From Actinomycetes bacterium (GTDB lineage: Bacteria; Actinomycetota; CALGFH01): a DNA stretch of 64,000 bases. Where the stretch lies: NCBI GenBank assembly GCA_036000965.1, contig DASYUT010000303.1:1-64000 (forward strand), written 5' to 3'. Positions 2,755 through 40,993 of this stretch are shown here, in pieces. The notes beneath the pieces were generated by a model. It saw only the letters and a program-made list of their open reading frames with translations. It had not been told where the DNA came from and did no database searches. Numbering within the stretch: position 1 is the first letter of the stretch; every line of letters starts with the position of its first letter. Made by a program: the position numbers and the translations under genes.

Positions 2755-3576
2755 TCAGGTGCTGGCTGGCGCGGACTCGTCCCCTCCCCCGCCGTCCGGG
2801 CCGCCGCCGGGGAGCCTACCAGCGCCCGCCCGGTCGGGCGCCCCGCCCGCTCCAGGCGGGGCCGCTGGCCCGCTCCCGCGCCCGGCCGCTGGCCCACTCC
2901 CGCGCCCGGCCGCCTCGGTCGCCCGCTCCAGCACCCGGGCCCGGAAGCGCCTGCCCTGCTCGGCCCCGCGCACACCCCGCACCCGCCTGGCCCGCCCCTC
3001 CCTGGCCACCAGGCGGGTACGGCCGCCGCTGATCTCAACCGCTGACAGCTCCTCGTAGCGCCAACGCCGCGCGCCGGTGAGGCCGTGCGCGGCGACCCCG
3101 TCGCCGTCCAGCTGGACCTCCCACACCCGCGCCCGGAGGGCGGCCACGGCCAGGCTGTAGACACTCAGCGCCGTCCAGAGAAGCGCGGCGACCACCAGCG
3201 AGGCGCCAACGCCCGGGTTGGCGTCGCCAACGAGCTGCGCGCAGCCGAACAGCACCAGCGCCAGTGCAGCCTCGAGCAGCCCGCTGGCCACGGCATGCAC
3301 CACGCCGCCGGGACGGAACCGCTCGACCTCCCCGGAGCGCGGCTCCCCGGAAGGCGCGGCTCCGGGTCCGGGCGCGCCCGCGGTGGCTGGGTGCTCCGCC
3401 TGCCCGGCTCCGGCTCCGGCTCCGGGTCCAGGTCCAGGTCCAGGTCCGGCCCCGGGTCCGGCTGCGGCTTCGGCTGCGGGTCCGGGTCCGGCTCCGGGTC
3501 CGGATCCGGCTGCGGGTCCAGGTCCGTCCGGCCGGGGTCCGGCGGTGCTCCGGGCCGGTGGTCGGGGAGGTGGCAT
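2755..3576 (-). CDS. Membrane protein with low-complexity N-terminus and PH-like cytoplasmic domain
   Basis: The product has 273 residues and no recognised enzyme motif. Residues 1-85 are Pro/Gly/Ala-rich (GPGPGPGAGAGAG runs). Two hydrophobic segments follow (near VVHAVASGLLEAALALVLFG and GASLVVAALLWTALSVYSLA). Next comes a short beta-rich region (VWEVQLDGDGVAAHGLTGAR, WRYEELSAVEI) that resembles bacterial PH-like domains, then an Arg-rich and Gly/Pro-rich tail. The ATG at 3576 gives the only sensible start, but the ribosome site (CGGGAA) is weak. It lies 26 bp after plsC on the same strand. Function unknown; the PH-like assignment is by pattern only. Confidence 0.7.
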   Translation of the reverse strand: MPPPRPPARSTAGPRPDGPGPAAGSGPGAGPGPAAEAAAGPGAGPGPGPGPGAGAGAGQAEHPATAGAPGPGAAPSGEPRSGEVERFRPGGVVHAVASGLLEAALALVLFGCAQLVGDANPGVGASLVVAALLWTALSVYSLAVAALRARVWEVQLDGDGVAAHGLTGARRWRYEELSAVEISGGRTRLVAREGRARRVRGVRGAEQGRRFRARVLERATEAAGRGSGPAAGRGSGPAAPPGAGGAPDRAGAGRLPGGGPDGGGGDESAPAST

Positions 3577-18546: not shown

Positions 18547-21500
18547 TTACTCGGACTCGAACTCGTGGGCATCGAACCTGAGCGTGCGGGCGTTTTCCGT
18601 CACCGTGCGGCGGACGTCATCGTCGAAGCCACCGGTCGAGGTTGCCTCGATCTCGACCGTCACGCTGACGTGGGCGTCGGGCGCCCGGCGGAGCTGCCGG
18701 ACGATCGCGTCGGTGATGTCGCTCACGTCCCGCAGCAGGCGCACGGGCTCGAGGGCGATACGACCGTAGAACCGGCCAGGAAGCACGGGCTCCGGCGGCT
18801 TGGCCGACTCGCCAGCCGCCTCTCCACTGGCGACCTTACCCCCTGAGGTCTCAACGGCCTCGCCGAGTCCGACCAGGCCGCCGGTGTCGTCGGCGCGCTT
18901 GCGGTCCGCCTCGATCTGGTGCCGGGCCACGTCGGGTCTGACCACGACGCTCACGTCGTCGAGCGTGACAGCCGGGAACACGGCGGCGACCAACCCGCTG
19001 TAGCGACCGCTCGCCTCGTCGAACGCACTCGCGTAGGCGAAGGTGTCCGGATGCCAGGTAAGCGAGGCCACGCCGTCCCGCACCGCGCCGAGCAGGACGG
19101 CCGGGTCGCGCAGGCGCGGCAAGTAGAGGTACTGCGAGTAGTCGCTCCAGAGCTGGCGGAGGTTGACGTGGTCTCCGCGCCAGAGTGGCACGCGATCCAG
19201 GTCCATGCGCAGCCGGACACCGGAGTAGTCGGTGATCAGGCCCTCTTCGCTGACGAGCTTCCTGGCGGCCCGCACCGCCAAGGCGTCGTTGCCGCCGACC
19301 CGTGTCTCCTCCCAGACGACGGTGGGGTCGTGGACGGACTGGCTCGGGGTCAGCACCCACGCAAAGGTCTCGCCGACTCGCTGGACGACGGCTTGGTCGA
19401 ACTGCTCGCGCTTGGTCTCCGCCTGCCGGCGCTGGAAGTTGTCGAGGTTGAGGGTCTCCTTCTCGGCCTCGATCGAGCCCCAGGCCAGGAACTGGCGCAC
19501 CGCTTGACGCAGGTCCTGCAGGCGGCTCCGGTCGGCGGCGAGGAACACCAACATGTTGCGGTGGAACCGGTCCCCCGCCGCTCGCTTGTCGAGGAACTGC
19601 TGGGCCGCCACCCGGGCCGGGCTGTCGACGGTCTTCCCTGAGTGCGGGTGCTCGGGCCCGAACACGACGAGTCGGGCCTCGGGGTCGTCGGGCACGTCGC
19701 CTGGGGCGGCGGGGCGGCGTGGACGGCGGCGAAGTCGCCGCGCTGGCGCTCGGCCGGCTTGCGCCGGCGGCGGATCTCTTCGTCGACGTCGTCGTCCGCG
19801 AAGTGCGAGACCGCCCGGTCGCGGGCCAGGCGGGTCACCGACGGCTGCAGTGAGTACCAGTACCGCTGGCCATCCACGTACAGGTAGGTCGCCTGGTCGG
19901 TGAGCCGGCGCAGGGCATCGCCGAAGGTGGCGGGAGCCTCGCCCGGCTGGACGCAGCCGAGCTTGATCGAGCGGTCGTCCAGGCCCCGGTTGGCCGCCTG
20001 CTGGGTCGGTGCCGAGCCAAGGTAGATGGTGCGCGCCACCCGGCGCGTCGCGGAGTAGCGCCCCAGGTTGGGGTTGTCCCGGTCGAGCCGCAACGGCAGG
20101 GCGTTCGGCCCGTCGACGTCGCTCTCGATGACCGGGGTCCAGCCCTCCTCCAGGTAGCGGGTCAGCTCCGACGACACGGCCGGGGCGTCGATCGGGATGG
20201 TCGCCGGCATGATGAGCAGGCTCGGGTCGTTACGCTCCCAGAGCTCGTGGACGACCGCGGCCATGAGCCGCAGCACCCCGCGGGTGCGCTGGAACTTGTC
20301 GAGCGTCGACCACTCCCCGTAGAGCCGGTCGAACAGCTCCGGGTGGATCGGGTAGGCGGCGGTGAGGCGCCGCTCGTAGCCCTCGGTGCAGCCGCCCGGG
20401 AACTCCCCCCGCTGGCTGCGGTACAAGCCACCGAAGGCCCTGACCACGGCGTCGCGCTGCGGGGCCTTGTCGGCGGGCAGGTCGTCGAAGAGCCGGCGGC
20501 GGACGATCTCGAAGCCTTCCTCGGCGGACGCGGGCCGCCATGACGACTCGACGCGGCCGATCACGTTCTTCAGCCGTTCCAGCGCCGCCCGTCCACCCTC
20601 GCCGCCGACCTCGATGTCGGAAGCGGGGATCGACACCACCAGCAGCGTGCCCTCGACGGCCCGGGTCGCCTCGGCGAGCGCCTGGGCGAAGGTGAACTGC
20701 GCGTCGAACGACCCCGCGGGCAGACCGTCCACGCCGTAGAGCTGGCGGGCGTAGGCCACCCGCTCGTCGATCAGGACCAGGCAGGGCGCGTGGCGTCGGA
20801 GCAGGTCGACCAGGGCCGCGCCGGGGCTCGTGCCGGAGCGGTCCGCGTCGGCGACCAGCCGGTAGGACTCGTCGCCGCCGAGCTGCCAGGCCAGCTCGCC
20901 CCAGAGGGTGTGGACCTCGGTGCCGTCGCGCTTCTTCGCGATCTGTCCCGGGGAGATCATCTGCCCGACCAGCACGGCGGTGGTGGCCTTCGGCGGTGTT
21001 GCCAGGTCGGCCTCGGCTAGCATGGCCTCGACGCCGGGTAGCTCGCCCGGCGGGTAACCGGCCGCCAGGTGGAACAGCGCGATCATGGAGTGGGTCTTGC
21101 CGCCACCGAAGTTGGTCTGTAGCTCCACCACCGGGTCGCCGCCGTCCCGCCACCACCGGCGCACCGCGTTCAGCAGCAGCCGGCGCAGGCCGTCGGTGAG
21201 GAACGTGCGGCGGAAGAACTCGACCGGGTCGCCGTACTCGTCGGCCGCCTCGTCCCGCCACACCTGGTGGAGGTCGGCGGCGAACTCGGCCTGCTGGTAG
21301 CGGCCGGAGGCGACGTCCGGATGCGGGTGACGAGCTGCCGCCACGCGTGCAGGCCGCCCGCCGGCTGCCCCTCGATCGGGGCCACGGCCGCGCGACGCTG
21401 GGTCTGGCGGGCCTGCTCGGCGAAGCGGCTCCGCAGCAGCTCCTGGCGCATCCGGTCCACCTCGAGCGCCTCGTCGGCGGCAGCAACCGAGGTGAGCATT

Positions 21501-21823
21501 CTGTGAACGGTGTCGAGGGCGCGGTAGGCGTCGTCGGTGGAGAAGTTGCCCTGGTGCGCCCAGCGGTTGCGGATCTCGACGAACTCGCTCACGTAGCTGC
21601 GCTCGGTGTGGCCGAGCACCTTGGCGAACACCTCGCGCCACTGATCCATCAGCGCGACGAGGAGGAACTGGCTGTCCTCGGGGTTCGCCCGCCCGTGGCG
21701 GGCCACACGCTGCACCCACCCGTCGCCGTACCTCGCCTTGCACTCCCGGGCGACGAACGGGGCGAGCCCCTGGCGCAGCAGATCGAGCGCCTTGCCCACT
21801 CGTTCGTAGTTGGTGGTGGCCAT
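18547..21823 (-). pseudogene. DUF499-type AAA+ ATPase with HEPN-like N-terminus, two frameshifts
   Basis: The coding track runs from ATG 21823 to the stop at 18547, but in three frames. Residues 1-140 (NYERVGKALDLLRQGLAPFV, SEFVEIRNRWAHQGNFSTDD) resemble a Swt1-type HEPN domain. A frame change near 21330 leads to the ATPase part (ELQTNFGGGKTHSMIALFHL as Walker A; CLVLIDERVAYARQLYG as Walker B region). A second change near 19715 leads to the C-terminal 380 residues (LVVFGPEHPHSGK to the end). Both shifts lie in GC-rich simple sequence, so real decay and assembly error are both possible. DUF499 ATPases accompany DUF1156 methylases and large helicases in defence islands. Confidence 0.82.
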
Positions 21824-21826
21824 CGA

Positions 21827-22276
21827 TCAGGGCTCCTGTTCTCGCTCCGTCCGCGCAGCTGGCTCGGTGCCGACGAGCTCGACCACCACCTCGGCGGCAC
21901 GCCCGAGGACCCGACTTGCCGCCTCTAGGCAGTCCTGGGCGTCTGCGGCCGTCCCCTCGTCGACGTCGGCCGGGTAGCGACCGGCAATGGACCACCGGCT
22001 CAGGTCCTCGAGCGCCGGCTCATTCAGCTCGGACATTATGGGGGAAGAGCACCGTTCGAGGAGCCTCCGCAGATCATGCAACTTCGGCGGGTCGACGTCC
22101 TCCGCGACCAGGACCGCCTTGATGGCCTTCTCAGCGGCCTGCTGCGCGAGCAGGCAGGCGATGCGGTACGGCAGGTCGGCCGCAGCCGCGAGGTGGATCG
22201 CCGCGGCCTGATCCTCCCGGGCGAGGCGCAGCCAGCGCCACGCCTCGCGCCGCAACCGCTCAGCCCGGTCGTTCAT
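21827..22276 (-). CDS. HEPN-domain protein (toxin-type partner of MNT)
   Basis: The 149-residue, mostly helical product begins RAERLRREAWRWLRLAREDQ and contains the family signature CLLAQQAAEKAIKAVLVAED followed by KLHDLRRLLERC. HEPN proteins of this type are RNases or AMPylation targets paired with minimal nucleotidyltransferases. Its start lies 17 bp inside the nucleotidyltransferase gene, and its stop is 3 bp from the DUF499 start. Both genes of the pair are open, unlike their neighbours. The RNase-type R-x4-6-H motif was not clearly placed. Confidence 0.85.
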   Translation of the reverse strand: MNDRAERLRREAWRWLRLAREDQAAAIHLAAAADLPYRIACLLAQQAAEKAIKAVLVAEDVDPPKLHDLRRLLERCSSPIMSELNEPALEDLSRWSIAGRYPADVDEGTAADAQDCLEAASRVLGRAAEVVVELVGTEPAARTEREQEP

Positions 22277-22631
22277 GCACCATCCGCCCCTCGCGCAGCG
22301 CCACCCTGAGGATCCCTGGCAGATCGCCCCGCTCGGCGATCTCGGCCGGGTCGGTGACCAGGAGGTCGACCGGAACGGGAGCCGAGATGGCGCGGGCGAG
22401 GTCGACGGTCAGCGCGTGCCGACGGCGCCGGTCGACCGATGGCAGGACCACGACCAAGTCGATGTCGGAGTCCGGCCCGTCGTCCCCTCGGGCGACCGAG
22501 CCGAACAGGAGCACTTGCAGCGGGTCGCCGGCCACGAAGAGGTCAGCCACGACCTTCGGCACCCATTCGGCCAGGGTCCGTCCGCGATACCGGATCTTGC
22601 CGTCGAGGACCTGCCACCGAACCTGCGTCAT
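22260..22631 (-). CDS. Minimal nucleotidyltransferase (MNT antitoxin-type)
   Basis: This 123-residue pol-beta-like nucleotidyltransferase has the core motif GSVARGDDGPDSDIDLVV, that is GS-x10-D-x-D with both metal ligands, plus a third acidic strand near PVDLLVTDPAEI. In MNT/HEPN toxin-antitoxin pairs this enzyme modifies and silences the HEPN partner. It starts 11 bp after the methylase remnant and overlaps the HEPN gene. The pair therefore sits inside the defence operon. Confidence 0.88.
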   Translation of the reverse strand: MTQVRWQVLDGKIRYRGRTLAEWVPKVVADLFVAGDPLQVLLFGSVARGDDGPDSDIDLVVVLPSVDRRRRHALTVDLARAISAPVPVDLLVTDPAEIAERGDLPGILRVALREGRMVHERPG

Positions 22632-22641
22632 CGTGGCCCCC

Positions 22642-23848
22642 TCACACCAGCGTCTGCTGCGCAGGCGCCTCCGCAGGAGCCTCCGCGGCGAGGCGCGCGA
22701 TCTCGGGCCAGGCGACGACGAGGGCGTTGTAGGCCAGCGCCTCCTTGGCCCACTTCTTCCGCTCGCAGAGCGTGAAGAGGCGGTAGGCCAGCCCCCGAGC
22801 CGCCTCCCCCCCGCCCTCCGATCCGGCGGAGCAACTCGGCCGCTTGGGCCTCGCCGCCGGTGTCCAGCGCCCGGATCAGATGCTGAGTGACCTCCCAGAC
22901 CGTGAGCCGCGCATCGACCGCCGGATCCCAGATCGGTGGCAGCTCGTCCCGGTCGAGCAGCCGGACCCTGCCCGCCCGGGACATGACGATCCCGGCTGCG
23001 ACCAGTCCATTGAGCGCCGTATTCTTGGCCTTCGACAACGTCTCGGCCACACCGAATAGCCCCGGGTTCGTCCCATGCTGCTCGAACCAGGCAAGTGCCC
23101 ACCTGGTGTCGGGGTCGAAGTCCGACTCCTGCTCGGCCAGCGTCTCGTCGAGTACCTGATTGATGAGTCCAAGCGCCGTACGAACGGTCATCGGCGAACC
23201 GTCGGCCTCGACCACCTTCGAGTAGCGGGAGAAGGTCCCCATCCCCGGCCCGATCGCCGCCTGCGCAAGGTCAACCGGCGCGATACTGCCTTGCTGGAGG
23301 TGCCGAAGGGCTATCGGTAGCTCAGTCTTGAGCGCTGCGAGGAAGTCCTTGCGGGTGGCGAGTGGGGCGTCGTCTGAGCGGGGTCGGCAGACGAGAAGGA
23401 TGGAAGACGCGAGGGCGTTGGTACCAATATCATTCGTCCGCCCCCCGCGCTCGCTCCGCATCGGCCAAGTACCGTGAACCGAAAGTCCAGCGTGGAGCAG
23501 TCCCTCTAACATCGTCTCCCAGCCGGTTGATGCGAGCCGGCCAGCGACGGCGTCTTCTTCGGCCTGTTTGAAGGCATAGAAAGCTGTCAGGGGATATCCA
23601 AATATCTGCGCCTCACACATCCGAACAAACGCCTCGCCTTCACTAGCTCCTCGATGATGCGGAAGAGCCGCTCCCGCTCCTCCTGCTGAGCCTCCTCGGT
23701 CGGGAAGCGGTCGGGGTGAGCGGACGGGTCGTCGACCAGTGACCCGAAGAGCACCGCCCGGCAGGCGGCCAGCGGACGTCGCGCCCACCACAGGTGCAGG
23801 GTGGAAGGATGCCCGTGGCGGATCGACTTCTCCCCGGGCCGACTCCTC
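22642..23848 (-). pseudogene. DUF1156 DNA adenine methylase remnant lacking its catalytic core
   Basis: The left part in coding order, from about 23848, reads ESAR, then with a one-base shift [20 protein letters not shown] and [18 protein letters not shown], the conserved N-terminus of COG1743 methylases. At about 23610 it jumps frame into [45 protein letters not shown] and LAQAAIGPGMGTFSRYSKVV, the family C-terminal third. The SAM-binding region and the D/N-PP-Y/F catalytic motif between them are absent. A run of seven G (about 22809-22815) then shifts the last 60 codons (LAYRLFTLCERKKWAKEALA up to the stop at 22642). It cannot methylate DNA. Confidence 0.85.
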
Positions 23849-24301
23849 GCGCGGGACCATAGCATCTCTTATGGCTCGGGTCGTCGATGCACGACAGGCA
23901 TCCACCAGCGCGCGCTTCGGATCATCAAGGGAATCCGGGTGGGCAGGAAGTCGTTGAAGTGGCACTCGAAAGAACTCCGAGAACGCTTGCGTATCGGCGA
24001 GTAGCCACGCCTCGACCGCCCGTACAGCAAGCCGCAGCGCAAGGCGAGGAGCAGGAGGACCCTTCAAGAGAACCTCAAGCACATCTGGCACACAAGTACC
24101 GTCATCATCGTGATCAAGGTCGCGGAGAACAAGCCAGCAGAGGTGCTCCGCACTTCGATTGTAGCCAGGGAGCTTTGGATCGAGCCTGCTCTTCCCGTCG
24201 GCAGTGAGGACCCTTCGGGGCATGCAGCCTGCCACTTCGATGAGCTTGGCGGCAACGGGCTCGTCTCCCCAGCCTTCGACGGCATAGGCGACTTCCGTCA
24301 T
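23849..24301 (-). pseudogene. DUF4276-type (TOPRIM-like) protein, C-terminus lost by fusion to methylase
   Basis: About 150 residues remain: VAYAVEGWGDEPVAAKLIEV, LVLRDLDHDDDGTC, AVRAVEAWLLAD and AHPDSLDDPKRALVD. This is the usual partner of RecF/OLD-like ATPases. The acidic DLDHDDDG segment suggests TOPRIM-type metal ligands. Its ATG overlaps the stop of the AAA ATPase (ATGA). After [11 protein letters not shown] the reading frame runs straight into the N-terminus of the DUF1156 methylase, so the last part of this gene and the first part of the next were removed together. Confidence 0.75.
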
Positions 24302-25455
24302 GCCGTTGCTCGAGGTAGGTCGTTCACATCCTGGGGCTCGGTAAGCGGACGGAGAATCTCTTCGAGATTCATGCCGGTATCGATGAACTCCTTGACATCT
24401 CGGATCTCGGAGGCGAGCAGCGCCGTCGTGCCTTCCGGGCCTGGGAAGAGCACGAGCGTCTCGTCGAGACCCAGGCCTTCGTCAGCGAGGATCTCGCCTG
24501 CATGGGTGCTGAGCAATACCTGAGGGCCGCCGGTCCGCTGCATCCTGCTCAGGATCGTCGGCAACTGACGTATCACAGAGGCGTGTAGCGAGAGCTCCGG
24601 CTCTTCCAGCAGCAAGGGGCCCGCCGACTTGCCACCTTCGAGCAGAGACCACAGCAGCCCGATGAGGCGAAGCGTCCCATCCGAGAAGTCGCGCTCGTCT
24701 TGACGCGCACCTTGGACGCGCCAGTGCTGATACCGAGCCTGGAGATGCGGCTTGCCGCCAGGGTCGCGAACAAGCTCCAACTGGTCGAGCTGGGGAACAG
24801 CGAGACGTAGTGCATCGTTGAGCCTCCTCAGCCGCCGCCTCCTTGTTGCGTCGGGCGTACGCGCGACCCGGAGAAGGAAGTCCCCGCCGTATGGGTCTTC
24901 GGTCCGGTCGCCGGCACGATCTGGCTCCCTCACGACCTGGGGAACCAGATGGAGATACCGGATCGACTCGAGAAAGTCGGCCACCTCTCGAAACTCGCGG
25001 TTCGCGTTGACCTGCTCGAGCGCGGTCTGCGTCAACCGCTCCTCATCCTGCCGATCCTCGTCGTCGGGTCGGCTGAGAACGGTCACACCCCGGTGGCGAA
25101 CCAGCTCTTGCGTGACCACTGGACGATGCTGTCCGCGCTGCTCGGCCGTGAAGTCAAGGAGGTACGACCACTCCTCCGGCTCCTTCGAGGTACCAAGCGA
25201 GATCGCGACCTGCACACGCCCATGATTGAAGTTCCGGGCGGCCAGGCTGCGGACCCGTGGGATCCCACCCCGGGTGGTGACTGCCTCCTGGAGCCCACCG
25301 CCTACGCGTGCGATGTCGCGCAAGAACCGCAGCGCGTCGAGCAGGTTGGACTTTCCTGAAGCGTTCGGGCCGACGATGAACAGCCGCTCCTGCACGTCAA
25401 CGTCCACGGAACGGAAGTTCCGCCAGTTCTTCAGGGTCAGGTAGGTGATCCGCAC
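24298..25455 (-). CDS. RecF/OLD-like AAA ATPase (AAA_21 type)
   Basis: The 385-residue SMC-like ATPase appears complete. It opens MRITYLTLKNWRNFRSVDVD, has the Walker A GPNASGKSN, a signature-like DFSDGTLRLIGLLWSLLEGG, Walker B PLLLEEPELSLH and the switch histidine in VLLSTHAGEIL. Such ATPases work with a DUF4276/TOPRIM partner in Gabija- or OLD-like antiphage modules. Here the partner, overlapping by four bases, is truncated. The start is 22 bp after the helicase remnant. Confidence 0.88.
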   Translation of the reverse strand: MRITYLTLKNWRNFRSVDVDVQERLFIVGPNASGKSNLLDALRFLRDIARVGGGLQEAVTTRGGIPRVRSLAARNFNHGRVQVAISLGTSKEPEEWSYLLDFTAEQRGQHRPVVTQELVRHRGVTVLSRPDDEDRQDEERLTQTALEQVNANREFREVADFLESIRYLHLVPQVVREPDRAGDRTEDPYGGDFLLRVARTPDATRRRRLRRLNDALRLAVPQLDQLELVRDPGGKPHLQARYQHWRVQGARQDERDFSDGTLRLIGLLWSLLEGGKSAGPLLLEEPELSLHASVIRQLPTILSRMQRTGGPQVLLSTHAGEILADEGLGLDETLVLFPGPEGTTALLASEIRDVKEFIDTGMNLEEILRPLTEPQDVNDLPRATA

Positions 25456-25477
25456 AGCTCAGCCCTCCAAGCCACAG

Positions 25478-28255
25478 TCACGCCGGTACCTCGCAGCGGT
25501 TGGCGAGCTGCTGCCAGTCAAAGGTCACGCTGATGGCGCCGAACGGCAGGTCGCCGCTGCCGTCGAACGCCCGTCGCAGGTAGCGGACCAGTGGCTGACC
25601 ATCGGTTGGCACCTCGACGAGGGCGAGGATGAACTGGTCGGGCTTGTTGCGGCCGACCCCGATCTCGCTCTTGGTGGCCATCACCGTGTCGGCGCCCTCC
25701 ACGCGTCCCTTGACCTCGATGAACCACAGGCGGCCGTCGAGGTCCTTGGACTCTATAGTCATAGCCCTTGTTGTTGCGGGGCATCTCGACCGGCGTCCGG
25801 CCGAGGCTGCGCTCGACCGCGAGCACGGCGTCGACCGCGGCGTGCTCGACCCGCTCCGTCTCCCGGGCCCGCCCGGCCGGATCGGCGACGCTCCCCCGCA
25901 GCCGCGCCAGCAGGCCAGCGGGCAGGATGAGCGCGCCACCGGCGACGACGGGAGGGAGGGCGGAGAGCTGGCGTTCGGCGTCCAGCTCGTCGAGCCGGCG
26001 CTTGAGCCGGGCCTCCAGCTCGTCGGCCCGCTGGCGCGCCTTGGCCGAGTTCATGCCGCTCTTCGGCAGCCTGCCCGCCAGCTCCTGGTCCTTGAGCTGG
26101 TTGGCTCGGTGGTCCCAGTAGCGGATCTCGGTGAGCAGCCGTTCCCGCACGGCGGCGGTGGTCCGCTCCACCCGGTCGAGGGTCCGGCGCCGGACCTCCT
26201 CCAGGTGGTCACGGGCCTGGGCCACGCCGTGGTCGAGGCTTCGCGCCTCCAGGTCGTCACGCACCCACCTGCCATCGAGGACCGGCCTGGCCACCTCCAG
26301 CTCCTCGGGCGTGGCAGGCCGGCAGTCGAGATAGGGCGCCCAGCCGGCGCCGCGCGCGCCGCCGTCCTGGTCGACCTCGACGAACTCGAAGCGCTTGGAC
26401 ACGATCCGCCGGTTGCCGCCCCGGTCGAGGCGCCCGTCCTGGATGGCGTGCTGCAGGTAGACGAGCACGCGGGGTCGCTCTCCGGGGTCGCTCTCGTCCA
26501 CCAGCACGGCGCCCTGGATGAGCAGGCTGGCGTAGCGCTCGACGACGAGGTCGATCGTGCCGTCGAGCAGCGGATGCCCGGGGCAGCAGAACTCGGCGAG
26601 CGGCCGGCCGTCGACGGCGATCAGCTCCTTGTGGAAGGTGACGCGCTCGTAGCGCCGTAGCAGCGGCGCGCAGCCGTCCCGGCGGTCGCGTCGGCGCAGC
26701 TCCGCAGGCACGTGCGTGATCTCGTAACGGCCGGGCTTGCGCTCGCGGATGGTGCCGCCGAGCAGGGTGAACGCCGCGAGGAAGAAGGAACGGATGAAGT
26801 GGGGCTGGAGGCGGCGGGCGTCGGCGCGCTCCATCTCGTCGCGGATCTGCTCGACGTCGGCCATGGTCATGACGTCGCTGACCAGTGCCCGCTCATGCAC
26901 CACCTGCCGGAGGGTGTCGCCGACGGTGTCGTCGACGACCAGCTCGAGCTGCCGCCGACGTCGCGGAACTCGTGGGGGACCTGCGGCACGCCGATCTCGG
27001 CGGCAGCCTCGGCCGCCCGTCTGCGGGGCCGCTCCTCAGCGACCCGGGCCTCCAGCCGCTTCCGGCGCCGGACCAGCGACTGGTAGATGGCCTCCGGGGA
27101 GGAGGCCAGCCGGCGCTGGAGGATGGTGAGCGCGAAGCCGACGACGGCCCCTCTGCGGCCCTCGCCCTCGGCCTTGAGCCGGTCGGCCCGGTTCATCTCC
27201 TCCTGGACGTACTCGGTGACATGCTTGTAGAGCAGCATTTCGTCGTCGGAGAGCGGGTAGCTAGGGCTGGCGGCACGGCGCTCGGGGAACAGGCGTGTGC
27301 CGTCGAACTTCAGCAGCTTCTCCTTCACCAGCCGTCGCATCAGGTCGCTGGTGTCGGCGTGGACGCCCTCGCGGGGTCTGCCCTCGAAGCGGTCGCCGTC
27401 GAGCAGGGCCATGAAGAGCTGGAAGTCCTCCTCCTTGCCGCTGTGTGGGGTCGCGGTCATCAGCAGCAGGTGGCGGGCGACCGAGCCAGCCAGCTTGCCG
27501 AGCTTGTAGCGCTTGGTCTCCTTGACCTCGTTGCCGAACCGGTGCGCCGACAGCTTGTGTGCCTCGTCGATGACGACCAGGTCCCAGTCGGTGGCGGCCA
27601 GCTTGGCCTGGACGTCCTCGTTGCGGGACAGGTGGTCGAGGCGAGCGATCAGCAGCGGGCGCTCGGCGAACGGGTTGCCGGTGCGGGACGCCTCGATCAT
27701 GTCGCGGGTCAGGATCTCGAAGTCCAGGCGGAACTTGGCCCAGAGCTCGTCCTGCCACTGCTCGACCAGGCTGCCCGGGGCGACCACCAGGCAGCGCTCG
27801 ACGTCGCCGCGGATCGCCAGCTCCTTGCAGAACAGCCCGGCCATGATCATCTTGCCGGCACCCGGGTCGTCGGCGAGCAGGAAGCGCAGCGGCTGGAGCG
27901 CGAGCATCCTCGAGTAGACAGCGTCGATCTGGTGCGGCAGGGGTTCGAGCGTCGAGACCTGCACCGCCAGGAACGGGTCGAACAGGTAGGCAAGGGAGAT
28001 CCTCTTGGCCTCCGAGACCAGCCGGAACAGGTGACCGTCGGCGTCCAGCGACCAGACCCGACCCCGCTCCTGGACGGCAAGGCGGGACTCGTCGTCCCGG
28101 TACAGCAGCTCCTGGCCGGGCTTGCCGGACTCGTCGGTATAGGTGAGCGTGAGCGCGTTCGAGCCGTGCCACTCGATCTGCACGACCCTGACAGGACGCT
28201 CCGCCAGCACGCCTTGCACCAGGGCGCCGGTGGTCAGCTCCTCGAGGCGGCTCAT
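25478..28255 (-). pseudogene. DrmD-like SNF2 helicase with DUF3883, internally deleted and frameshifted
   Basis: From ATG 28255 about 435 residues match the N-terminal half of large SNF2-type defence helicases: LADDPGAGKMIMAGLFCKEL, VVIDEAHKLSAHRFG, LLMTATPHSGKEEDFQ and VGFALTILQRRLASSPEAIY. Motif I has Met where Thr is expected (GAGKT). Near 26950 the frame changes and the sequence continues with the part that normally follows the helicase C-terminal domain (RADARRLQPHFIRSFFLAAF). Motifs IV-VI are missing. An extra T at about 25757 breaks the C-terminal DUF3883 domain (NNKGYD / IESKDLDGRLWFIEVKGRVE). Confidence 0.87.
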
Positions 28256-28463
28256 CTGGCTACAGCCCCCTGTCTCTTGCCGGCCGCGAAGGCCCAGGTC
28301 GGCATCTCGTCGACGATCCGCCGCGGCCGTCATCGTAGAGTACGAGACCGCTGTGACCGATCCAGGAACCTAGCATGTGCCACGTCGGTGAGGCAGATTT
28401 CGGAGCTGCTGTGGACGGGCCGCGGCCAGCTGTGGAGCGGCCGTCAGTTCCTCGCCGACCCGA

Positions 28464-29008
28464 ATGGTCATGCCGAGCTGGGTCATGCGCGGCCCTCCCT
28501 CGGCGGACGCGGAGGCGCTCAAGCGCTTCGGGAACCGCTGCCCGCCGGTGGTGTGCGCTTCGGGGTGGCCCAACACCGCCGTGATCGAGCTGCTGCGGCA
28601 ACTCGGCCGGACCGGGTCGCGGATCATGTACCACGGCGACCTCGACGGGAAGGGCCTGCGCATCGCGTCCTACGTGGTCGTCCGGACCGGGGCGCTGCCT
28701 TGGCGGATGACCACCGCCGACTACGTCGCCGCGGTCGCCCGGACGGGCACGCCACCCGGGCGGACGGGCACGCCCACGGGACGGACGGGCACGCCCACGG
28801 GACGGACAGGCAAGCCGGCCTTGCGCATCCCCGACGTCCCGGTCGCGGCAGTCGCCCGGACAGGGCACGCCAGTCGGGCGCGTCCCCGACGTCCCGTGGG
28901 ACCCCGGGCTCGGCGAGGCGGAGCCGTGGCTTGACGGTCTCCGAGGAGCGTGTCACCGAGGTTCTGCTCGAGGACATGGCCGCATACTGCGCGCCGCCGG
29001 AGCCATGA
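28464..29008 (+). pseudogene. DUF2399 (JetD/TIGR02679-like) C-terminal remnant
   Basis: The frame from 28464 carries PPVVCASGWPNTAVIELLRQ, MYHGDLDGKGLRIASYVV and RTGALPWRMTTADYVAAVA, the TOPRIM-like end of TIGR02679 proteins, the nuclease subunit of a Wadjet-type plasmid defence complex. The expected family end (VSEERVTEVLLEDMAAY) lies in another frame, closing at 29008. Between them a 21-bp minisatellite and duplicated pieces interrupt the domain. The first several hundred residues of the protein are absent. It is on the opposite strand to the defence operon. Confidence 0.75.
28740..28802 (+). repeat. 21-bp minisatellite inside the DUF2399 remnant
   Basis: Three tandem copies of a unit beginning CGGACGGGCACGCCCACGG lie at 28740-28760, 28761-28781 and 28782-28802, followed by a degenerate one. 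They encode RTGTPTG repeats. The flanking pieces GTCGCCCGGACNGGGCACGC and CCCCGACGTCCCG also occur twice (near 28735/28850 and 28827/28884), showing a wider duplication. Confidence 0.9.
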
Positions 29009-30330: not shown

Positions 30331-30476
30331 CCCCTCCTCAGGGAGACGGTCCTGCCCGTCGACGCCCCTCCCCAGGAAGACGATCCTGAGGGAGGCGGTC
30401 CTGCCCGTCGACCCCCCTCCTCAGGGAGACGATCCTGAGGGAGGCGGTCCTGCCCGTCGACCCCCCTCCTCAGGGA
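30331..30476. repeat. About 49-bp tandem repeats between ATPase and kinase genes
   Basis: Two near-identical units of about 49 bp (30364-30413 and 30414-30462) are flanked by a shortened copy (30331-30363) and the start of another (30463-30476). Each contains the inverted repeat CCTCAGG-gagacgat-CCTGAGG, so the transcript can form serial hairpins. The last copy overlaps the 3' end of the kinase gene. Confidence 0.9.
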
Positions 30477-40008: not shown

Positions 40009-40993
40009 GGCTGGTCCTCGGCGTCGACGGCGGCGGGTCGAAGACCCACGCGCTGGTCGCCGACGAGCGCGGCGAGACGCTCGGGTTCGCCTCCAGCGGT
40101 CGCTCCAACTGGGAGGACACCAGCATCGACCTGGCAAGGCTCGCCCTGGAGGAGGCGATCACTGGCGCGCTGGCCGTCGCCGGGGCCGAGCCCGGCGGCC
40201 TCGCCGCGAGCGCCTTCGGGCTCGCCGGGCTCGACTGGGACGACGACCGGCCGATGCTCGCCGGGCTCGTCGACCCGCTCGGCCTCGGCGGGCCCAGGAA
40301 GCTCGACAACGACTCGTTCATCGCCCTGCGCGCCGGCACGGCCCACCCGTTCGGGGTGGTGGTAATCGCCGGGACCGGCACGGTCGCCGCCGGCCGCGAC
40401 GCGGCCGGCCGGACCTTCCGCACGCTCGGCCTGCACCCGATGTACGGCGACTCGGCGGCGCGACCGACGTGGCCGAGGAGGCGGTCCACGCGGTTGCCGA
40501 CGCCTACACCGGTCGCGGGCCGGCGACCACGCTGAGCGAGCTGCTGCCGCCGCTGGCCGGCTGCGCCTCCCCGGTCGAGCTGCTGCGGCGGCTCAGCCGC
40601 CGCGCGATCGCGCTGCCACCCGCCGCGCCCCTGGTGCTGCAGCAGGCGGCCGCCGGCGACCCGGCCTGCCGCGAGATCGTCATCCGGGCCGGGACCGCGC
40701 TGGGAGAGTCCGCCGCGCTGGTCGCCCGCAGGCTCGGCCTGCACCACGACGCGTTCGAGACGGTCATGGCCGGCGGCCTGTTCCGCGGCAACAGCCGCCT
40801 GCTGGAGACGACCCTGGCGGACGCGCTCCACCGGGTCGCGCGGCGCGCGGTGCCGGTCCGCCTCGGCTGCAAGCCCGTGGTCGGGGCGGTCCTCGATGCG
40901 CTCGAGCTCGCCGGGGCCGAGACCGGCCCGGAGGTGCGCGCGCGGCTCGTCGCCTCCTCCCGCAGGTTCGCCCTCAGCCTTCGACCGGGTTGA
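40005..40993 (+). pseudogene. BadF/BadG-type sugar kinase with single-base frameshift
   Basis: The GTG at 40005 overlaps the dehydrogenase stop. Residues 1-148 read LVLGVDGGGSKTHALVADER, AFGLAGLDWDDD, LDNDSFIALRAG and VVVIAGTGTVAAG. At about 40453 the sequence is GGCGACTCGGCGGCGCG. One added G restores GDSGGATDVAEEAVHAVADA and a frame that runs to 40993. The lesion hits the conserved G-D-x-G-G loop. Both halves are otherwise well preserved, so a recent mutation, a sequencing or assembly error, or programmed slippage are all possible. The intact relative is at 30.5 kb. Confidence 0.83.

Follow-up and report, generated by a model that had tools for sequence, protein, structure and literature searches.

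The 64,000-nt window analysed here (positions 1 to 64,000 of the forward strand of contig DASYUT010000303.1, assembly GCA_036000965.1, from an Actinomycetes bacterium; all window positions are numbered on this stretch) contains, at 18547-28255 on the minus strand, an operon that we very probably have to regard as a recently inactivated Hma system with embedded accessory modules. Hma was described in 2021 (PMC8565338) and re-described as the Type-1 DUF499-centred BREX-related (BR) system with a HEPN-DUF499 fusion (PMC12839542), a fusion and operon already noted in 2013 (PMC3710099). The assignment of the operon to Hma is confirmed by its protein families and their order, and the window copy is, by its sequence, a damaged member of this known kind.

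Transcription runs from 28255 to 18547, and comparison with Pfam and PADLOC gives the order HmaA, HEC-01A, HEC-01B, HmaB, MNT, HEPN, HmaC, in which hmaA, hmaB and hmaC follow each other on one strand as in relatives, the HEC-01A/B pair lies between hmaA and hmaB, and the MNT/HEPN pair between hmaB and hmaC. HEC stands for Hma-embedded candidate (PMC12988326), and HEC-01 is an entry of PADLOC-DB; the guilt-by-embedding preprint (doi 10.1101/2024.01.29.577857) is given here as cited in PMC12988326. Pfam recognised DUF499, HEPN, MNT, DUF1156, AAA_21 and SNF2/ResIII helicase domains on this strand and DUF4276 weakly (E 0.0096), the last being identified through the PADLOC model for HEC-01B, and the DUF3883/NO VEIN end of the helicase was recognised by its similarity to the HmaA C-terminus. 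The top PADLOC matches were HmaA (651 and 385 bits, in two pieces), HmaB (E 4.7e-100), and HmaC, HEC-01A and HEC-01B with the values listed in Table 1.

Several motifs are still legible in these proteins. The N-terminal part of HmaA has a Walker A motif (DDPGAGKMI) and a DEAH box, HEC-01A has intact Walker A (GPNASGKS) and Walker B (LLLEEPE) motifs, and MNT has an intact nucleotidyltransferase motif, GSVARGDDGPDSDID, with a score of 37.4 bits against the NCBIfam MntA model NF047752, which is under the cut-off of 60. Both ends of HmaB clearly belong to the HmaB family (DUF1156 N6-methyltransferases), the N-terminal fragment being 83% identical to residues 24-88 of HmaB from genome G030. A motif scan found no Rx4-6H motif in the 149-aa HEPN protein, and the Swt1-type HEPN domain of HmaC carries the Rx4H motif RNRWAH, which is conserved among relatives. 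The first-pass annotation of this DNA had listed DUF499, MNT/HEPN, DUF1156, DUF4276, AAA and DUF3883 helicase modules in one minus-strand operon, adjoined by a DUF2399 (JetD-like) remnant, and all of them were recovered; the profile-HMM search resolved them as Hma plus HEC-01 plus MNT/HEPN and added the Swt1-HEPN domain fused to the N-terminus of the DUF499 protein, which had been overlooked. That annotation was also correct in describing a composite defence island in mid-decay with independent lesions in the large subunits.

The lesions were mapped by frameshift-tolerant alignment of proteins from intact relatives to the DNA, together with BLAST and profile coordinates. The relatives were drawn from a sample of 397 genomes of the phylum, and because eight of these (G030, G348, G164, G131, G119, G354, G246 and G225) have full-length Hma cores, the missing parts of the window copy can be defined. 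Seven lesions were found in the operon, three deletions and four frameshifts; every one is an indel, and there are no in-frame stop codons. The deletion in hmaA takes out the helicase C-terminal domain (Helicase_C) including motif VI, the larger deletion in hmaB removes its sole DPPY methylase motif, and the two frameshifts in hmaC leave its product in three pieces. The end of HEC-01B was placed by alignment against the G253 copy. Since codon periodicity is still clear in most fragments, the decay looks recent.

Table 1. Features of the island, its lesions and its neighbour in the window, and truncated hmaB starts in relatives
Feature	Position	Strand	Evidence
HmaC C-terminal part, other frame	18547..19706	-	PDLC00662 556-940, E 7e-80
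hmaC second frameshift	~19706	-	
HmaC DUF499 ATPase core	19710..21329	-	PDLC00662 11-551, E 4.4e-220
hmaC frameshift severing Swt1-HEPN from ATPase	~21328	-	
Swt1-type HEPN domain, HmaC N-terminus	21329..21823	-	PF18731 E 1.9e-32
HEPN protein, 149 aa, MNT partner	21827..22276	-	PF05168 E 5.1e-23
MNT nucleotidyltransferase, 123 aa, PDC-S09-like	22260..22631	-	PF01909 E 1.2e-9, PDC-S09
HmaB C-terminal fragment	22651..23635	-	PDLC00660 640-912
hmaB frameshift in G7 run	~22816	-	Frameshift alignment and sequence
hmaB deletion, ~1.46 kb, residues ~89-635 of 979	23635..23638	-	
HmaB N-terminal fragment (DUF1156), starts at residue 24	23638..23832	-	PF06634 E 1.5e-27
Deletion of ~0.2 kb fusing HEC-01B residue 156 to HmaB residue 24	23833	-	
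HEC-01B (DUF4276), cut after residue 156 of ~205	23834..24301	-	PDLC04194 E 2.5e-39, profile 4-155/204
HEC-01A, OLD-like AAA ATPase, open reading frame	24298..25455	-	PDLC04180 E 3.1e-156
HmaA C-terminal part, DUF3883/NO VEIN-type end	25478..26966	-	PDLC00659 677-1083, then 1087-1171 in another frame
hmaA one-base frameshift	~25736	-	Protein-to-DNA alignment
hmaA internal deletion, ~720-750 nt	26950..26993	-	Profile positions 419-676 missing, frame changes; break at ~26966-26993 in the alignment
HmaA N-terminal part, SNF2-type helicase motor	26993..28255	-	PDLC00659 profile 1-418, ~650 bits
JetD2 remnant (DUF2399/TIGR02679, Wadjet type II)	28464..28750	+	PF09664 E 1.1e-25; PDLC00557 293-383/423
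Truncated hmaB starts in relatives	L022 7124-7194; L110 4229-4349; L138 2819-2945; L139 4815-4931; L140 11349-11404		

According to the model of PMC12839542, in which anti-phage activity is reported for HmaA, an intact Hma system would probably act in a restriction-modification/BREX-like manner. HmaB would methylate self DNA, the DUF499 ATPase of HmaC would assemble a sensing complex, HmaA, an SNF2 helicase with a C-terminal nuclease, would destroy DNA that lacks the modification, and as a back-up the Swt1-HEPN domain in HmaC would act as a suicide RNase. Two accessory modules had been lodged in the gaps of the system here, namely HEC-01A/B, an OLD-like ATPase with the putative effector DUF4276, and the toxin-antitoxin-like MNT/HEPN pair. 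Since then, deletions and frameshifts have taken away the helicase C-terminal domain, the catalytic core of the methylase and the last part of HEC-01B, and have broken HmaC into pieces. The window copy lacks those portions of the methylase and helicase on which the model depends, and because of these losses Hma function is very probably gone, leaving only MNT/HEPN and HEC-01A open; HEC-01 function has probably been lost too.

A selective retention of the small modules might be read from their state, as the first-pass annotation had hinted. On that account, which we consider doubtful, the carrier is dead and its embedded modules (MNT/HEPN, HEC-01A and perhaps the freed Swt1-HEPN reading frame) are kept as free-standing defences; MNT, HEPN and HEC-01A are indeed open with intact nucleotidyltransferase and P-loop motifs, and many genomes have HEC-01 pairs at sites other than Hma. 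These three genes make up 16% of the ancestral coding length, however, and the probability that seven randomly placed lesions spare all of them is ~0.30, while the DUF4276 protein HEC-01B, the presumed effector, is itself truncated. In addition, the Hma locus of G175 retains an open MNT between hmaB and hmaC with HEPN reduced to a tail (L022 12105-12191), which means that retention of the pair is not the rule. The small modules may still have been selectively retained, though the chance value and the truncated HEC-01B lend this no support.

The other alternative puts the lesions down to errors of assembly or sequencing and has the cell carry HEC-01 and MNT/HEPN inside a Hma system that is still intact. 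Several points favour it and weigh against true decay: the genome is a draft of 358 contigs, so that at least one lesion could be an assembly error; the lesions are indels only, as expected from recent decay but equally from errors in sequencing or assembly; one frameshift, that in hmaB, sits at a run of seven G; and contig C191 of the same genome holds an inversion-like, possibly chimeric Hma junction. Frame breaks were called with a coding-frame model trained on the same genome, using 20 contig stretches with 222.5 kb of coding sequence as background. Five same-strand breaks fall in the ~8 kb of the island compared with seven in the 222.5 kb elsewhere in the genome, a density ~20-fold over background (Poisson P ~7e-6), and the remainder of the window has one. 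The genes flanking the island are intact, and clean deletions of ~0.2, 0.7 and 1.5 kb are atypical of base-calling error.

Comparable gutted copies of Hma were found in other genomes. HmaB 270 abuts HmaC 714 in G309, and HmaB 105 abuts HmaC 882 in G012; the Hma locus of G062, a single-contig genome, yielded only HmaA 3-144 and HmaB 3-67, and in G150, also a single contig, hmaB is interrupted by an integrase-core (rve, transposase-like) gene (L114 10495-11949). The contig itself belongs to the genome because its right flank is 82-89% identical to G001, a member of the same family, and is syntenic and collinear with it; neither G001 nor G002 gave HmaB or HmaC matches. Because the lesions cluster and other genomes carry gutted copies, assembly error, which the first-pass annotation had named as the possible refutation, is unlikely. 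Judged from the assembly, the lesions in all likelihood reflect true decay, a much likelier reading than error.

With the window copy identified as a probably decayed Hma operon, the more valuable comparison comes from its relatives; the window alone is of minor significance, adding a further broken Hma operon whose cargo is already known. HmaB matches with E 1e-60 or better were present in 30 of the 397 genomes, the genome of the window counted. Most full-length Hma relatives hold extra genes in the hmaA-hmaB or hmaB-hmaC gaps, and these include AlbA/Schlafen-like, NYN (HEC-09-like), GmrSD-type (HEC-05-like), OLD-like ATPase, MazE/PIN, SecB-like and MNT/HEPN genes; HEC-01 and Fic genes also occupy Hma gaps in this phylum. 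In G175 the order is HmaA, an AlbA/SLFN gene, HEC-01A, HEC-01B, HmaB, MNT, HmaC, that is, the order of the window with the AlbA gene added, in a locus that is also mildly damaged and has a frameshift in hmaB; G354 likewise shows MNT and HEPN matches between hmaB and hmaC.

The closest relatives of the window HEC-01A are those of G253 (75%) and of a Pseudomonadales metagenome-assembled genome (64%), neither of which lies inside Hma, whereas the Hma-embedded G175 copy reaches 52%. In a tree of HEC-01A the window copy groups with these two non-Hma copies (support 98/99) and not with G175, which hints, from two labelled rows of the tree, that HEC-01 was embedded separately in the window and in G175. 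The tree requires two changes and does not favour one common origin for the embedding, an argument that is weak with two labelled rows only. The G+C content of HEC-01 was not used to argue for a recent gain, as the adjacent hmaB fragment is likewise G+C-poor.

At five loci in four genomes, a shortened copy of the hmaB 5' end (~25-41 codons) immediately precedes the embedded cargo on its upstream side, and the genuine hmaB start always lies on the far side of the cargo (Table 1). In G175 a 71-bp copy of the hmaB start (89%) stands directly upstream of HEC-01A. The other copies measure 123 bp (95%) in G152, 127 bp (90%) and 117 bp (87%) on two contigs of G309, and 56 bp (88%) in G012; the cargo behind them is NYN, PIN or unidentified in G152 and both G309 contigs and AlbA/HATPase-type in G012. 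These truncated starts are likely scars of cargo insertion into hmaB, because a single-crossover or site-specific insertion into the hmaB 5' end would leave such copies. G152 and G309 belong to the same family, and their scars may go back to a single event; the likely number of insertion events is therefore at least three.

The scars would fit a model, for and against which we see the chances as evenly balanced, in which defence modules enter Hma by recombination at the hmaB 5' end and each insertion regenerates that end, leaving a truncated copy upstream of the cargo; the slot would then serve as a loading dock and Hma as a carrier of exchangeable defences. A scar was sought in the window and none was found, the sole hmaB start beginning at residue 24, and the window copy would thus be a dead and itself scar-free relative of the scar-bearing loci. 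A check of three plasmid records for a second hmaB start gave no convincing scars: the Thermus locus, from a plasmid record, has no second copy near hmaB, and in Planktothrix the matches are weak (52%) and fall within the helicase gene. Within this phylum, Hma gaps hold quite different modules, and hmaB 5'-end copies adjoin several of them. If the pattern holds more widely, it would provide a testable mechanism for defence 'embedding' and a sequence mark for finding recently inserted, unknown defences.

Further observations concern Hma loci and the surroundings of the island. Between hmaB and hmaC of G263, part of the hmaB start is fused to a repeated hmaB 3' end (L142 753-830, 2271-2428), which looks like the stub of a second hmaB copy otherwise lost by deletion. 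Direct repeats of 98 bp (98-99%), attachment-site-like, lie on either side of the complete Hma operon in two genomes from a single genus (L107 438-535 and 13597-13694; L109 1137-1234 and 14290-14387), and the G119 operon (L108 302-7374) has two full-length HmaA genes in tandem. The genome of the window holds a second Hma copy on contig C191 (L024, G000:C191), where an inversion-like junction at 3493/3494 joins hmaB and hmaC pieces; it is either a real inversion or the product of a chimeric contig, and a search of C191 for inverted repeats turned up only a 14-bp palindrome. A third locus of this genome (L026, G000:C108, 3928-10613) encodes NYN, a DUF1156 methylase and DUF499 in open frames and is distantly Hma-like. 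In the window, a 49-bp tandem repeat of 2.9 copies lies between two flanking genes (30335-30476; the G001 counterpart is shorter), and the only frame break outside the island, at ~40451, splits a BadF/BadG-like gene (40011-40960) into two frames. The window gave no matches when scanned for Rfam families and tRNAs, and tblastx of the flanks, which are G+C-rich DNA, gave noise only.

Compared with class 1 DISARM, the island shares an SNF2-type helicase that is distant kin of DrmD. A new, undescribed DISARM-like composite of a DrmD-like helicase, a methylase and DUF499, as proposed in the first-pass annotation, is highly improbable: the N-terminal part of the helicase does match DrmD with 247 bits (172 bits with NF038317, against a cut-off of 610), but the same piece scores 651 bits with HmaA, 400 bits better; DrmA, DrmB, DrmC and the DISARM methylase were not assigned among the island proteins by Pfam, PADLOC or NCBIfam, the absence of the first three having been noted earlier; and the three-gene set with the Swt1-HEPN-DUF499 fusion is already published (PMC12839542, PMC8565338, PMC3710099), HEC-01 being named for its embedding in Hma and G175 showing the same gene order. 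The ranking of PADLOC and NCBIfam matches and the Hma operons of related genomes rule out DISARM kinship beyond this remote relation of the helicase.

With Wadjet type II the island's surroundings share the DUF2399 fragment, an end part of JetD2 (PADLOC E 1.5e-33; TIGR02679 260-343), which lies outside the operon proper, ending at 28255, and divergent from it. Of a JetA-JetB-JetC-JetD operon, only this fragment of ~85 of ~420 residues was found next to the island; full-length JetC2 and JetD2 are encoded on contig C117 of the same genome (L121, G000:C117, 554-6140), that JetD being 41% identical to the remnant.

The adjacent MNT and HEPN genes with their nucleotidyltransferase motif (GSX-D-x-D) resemble MntA/HepT (PADLOC PDC-S09), from which they differ in the sub-threshold MntA score, in the HEPN motif and in being embedded between hmaB and hmaC. 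The AAA ATPase and DUF4276 pair between hmaA and hmaB corresponds to HEC-01, although the window HEC-01B is truncated and the nearest HEC-01A relatives lie outside Hma. The island as a whole agrees with Hma or Type-1 BR in its three core families, their order, the Swt1-HEPN-DUF499 fusion and the DUF3883/NO VEIN helicase end, and differs from it in its seven lesions, which leave it without the methylase catalytic motif or the helicase C-terminal domain.

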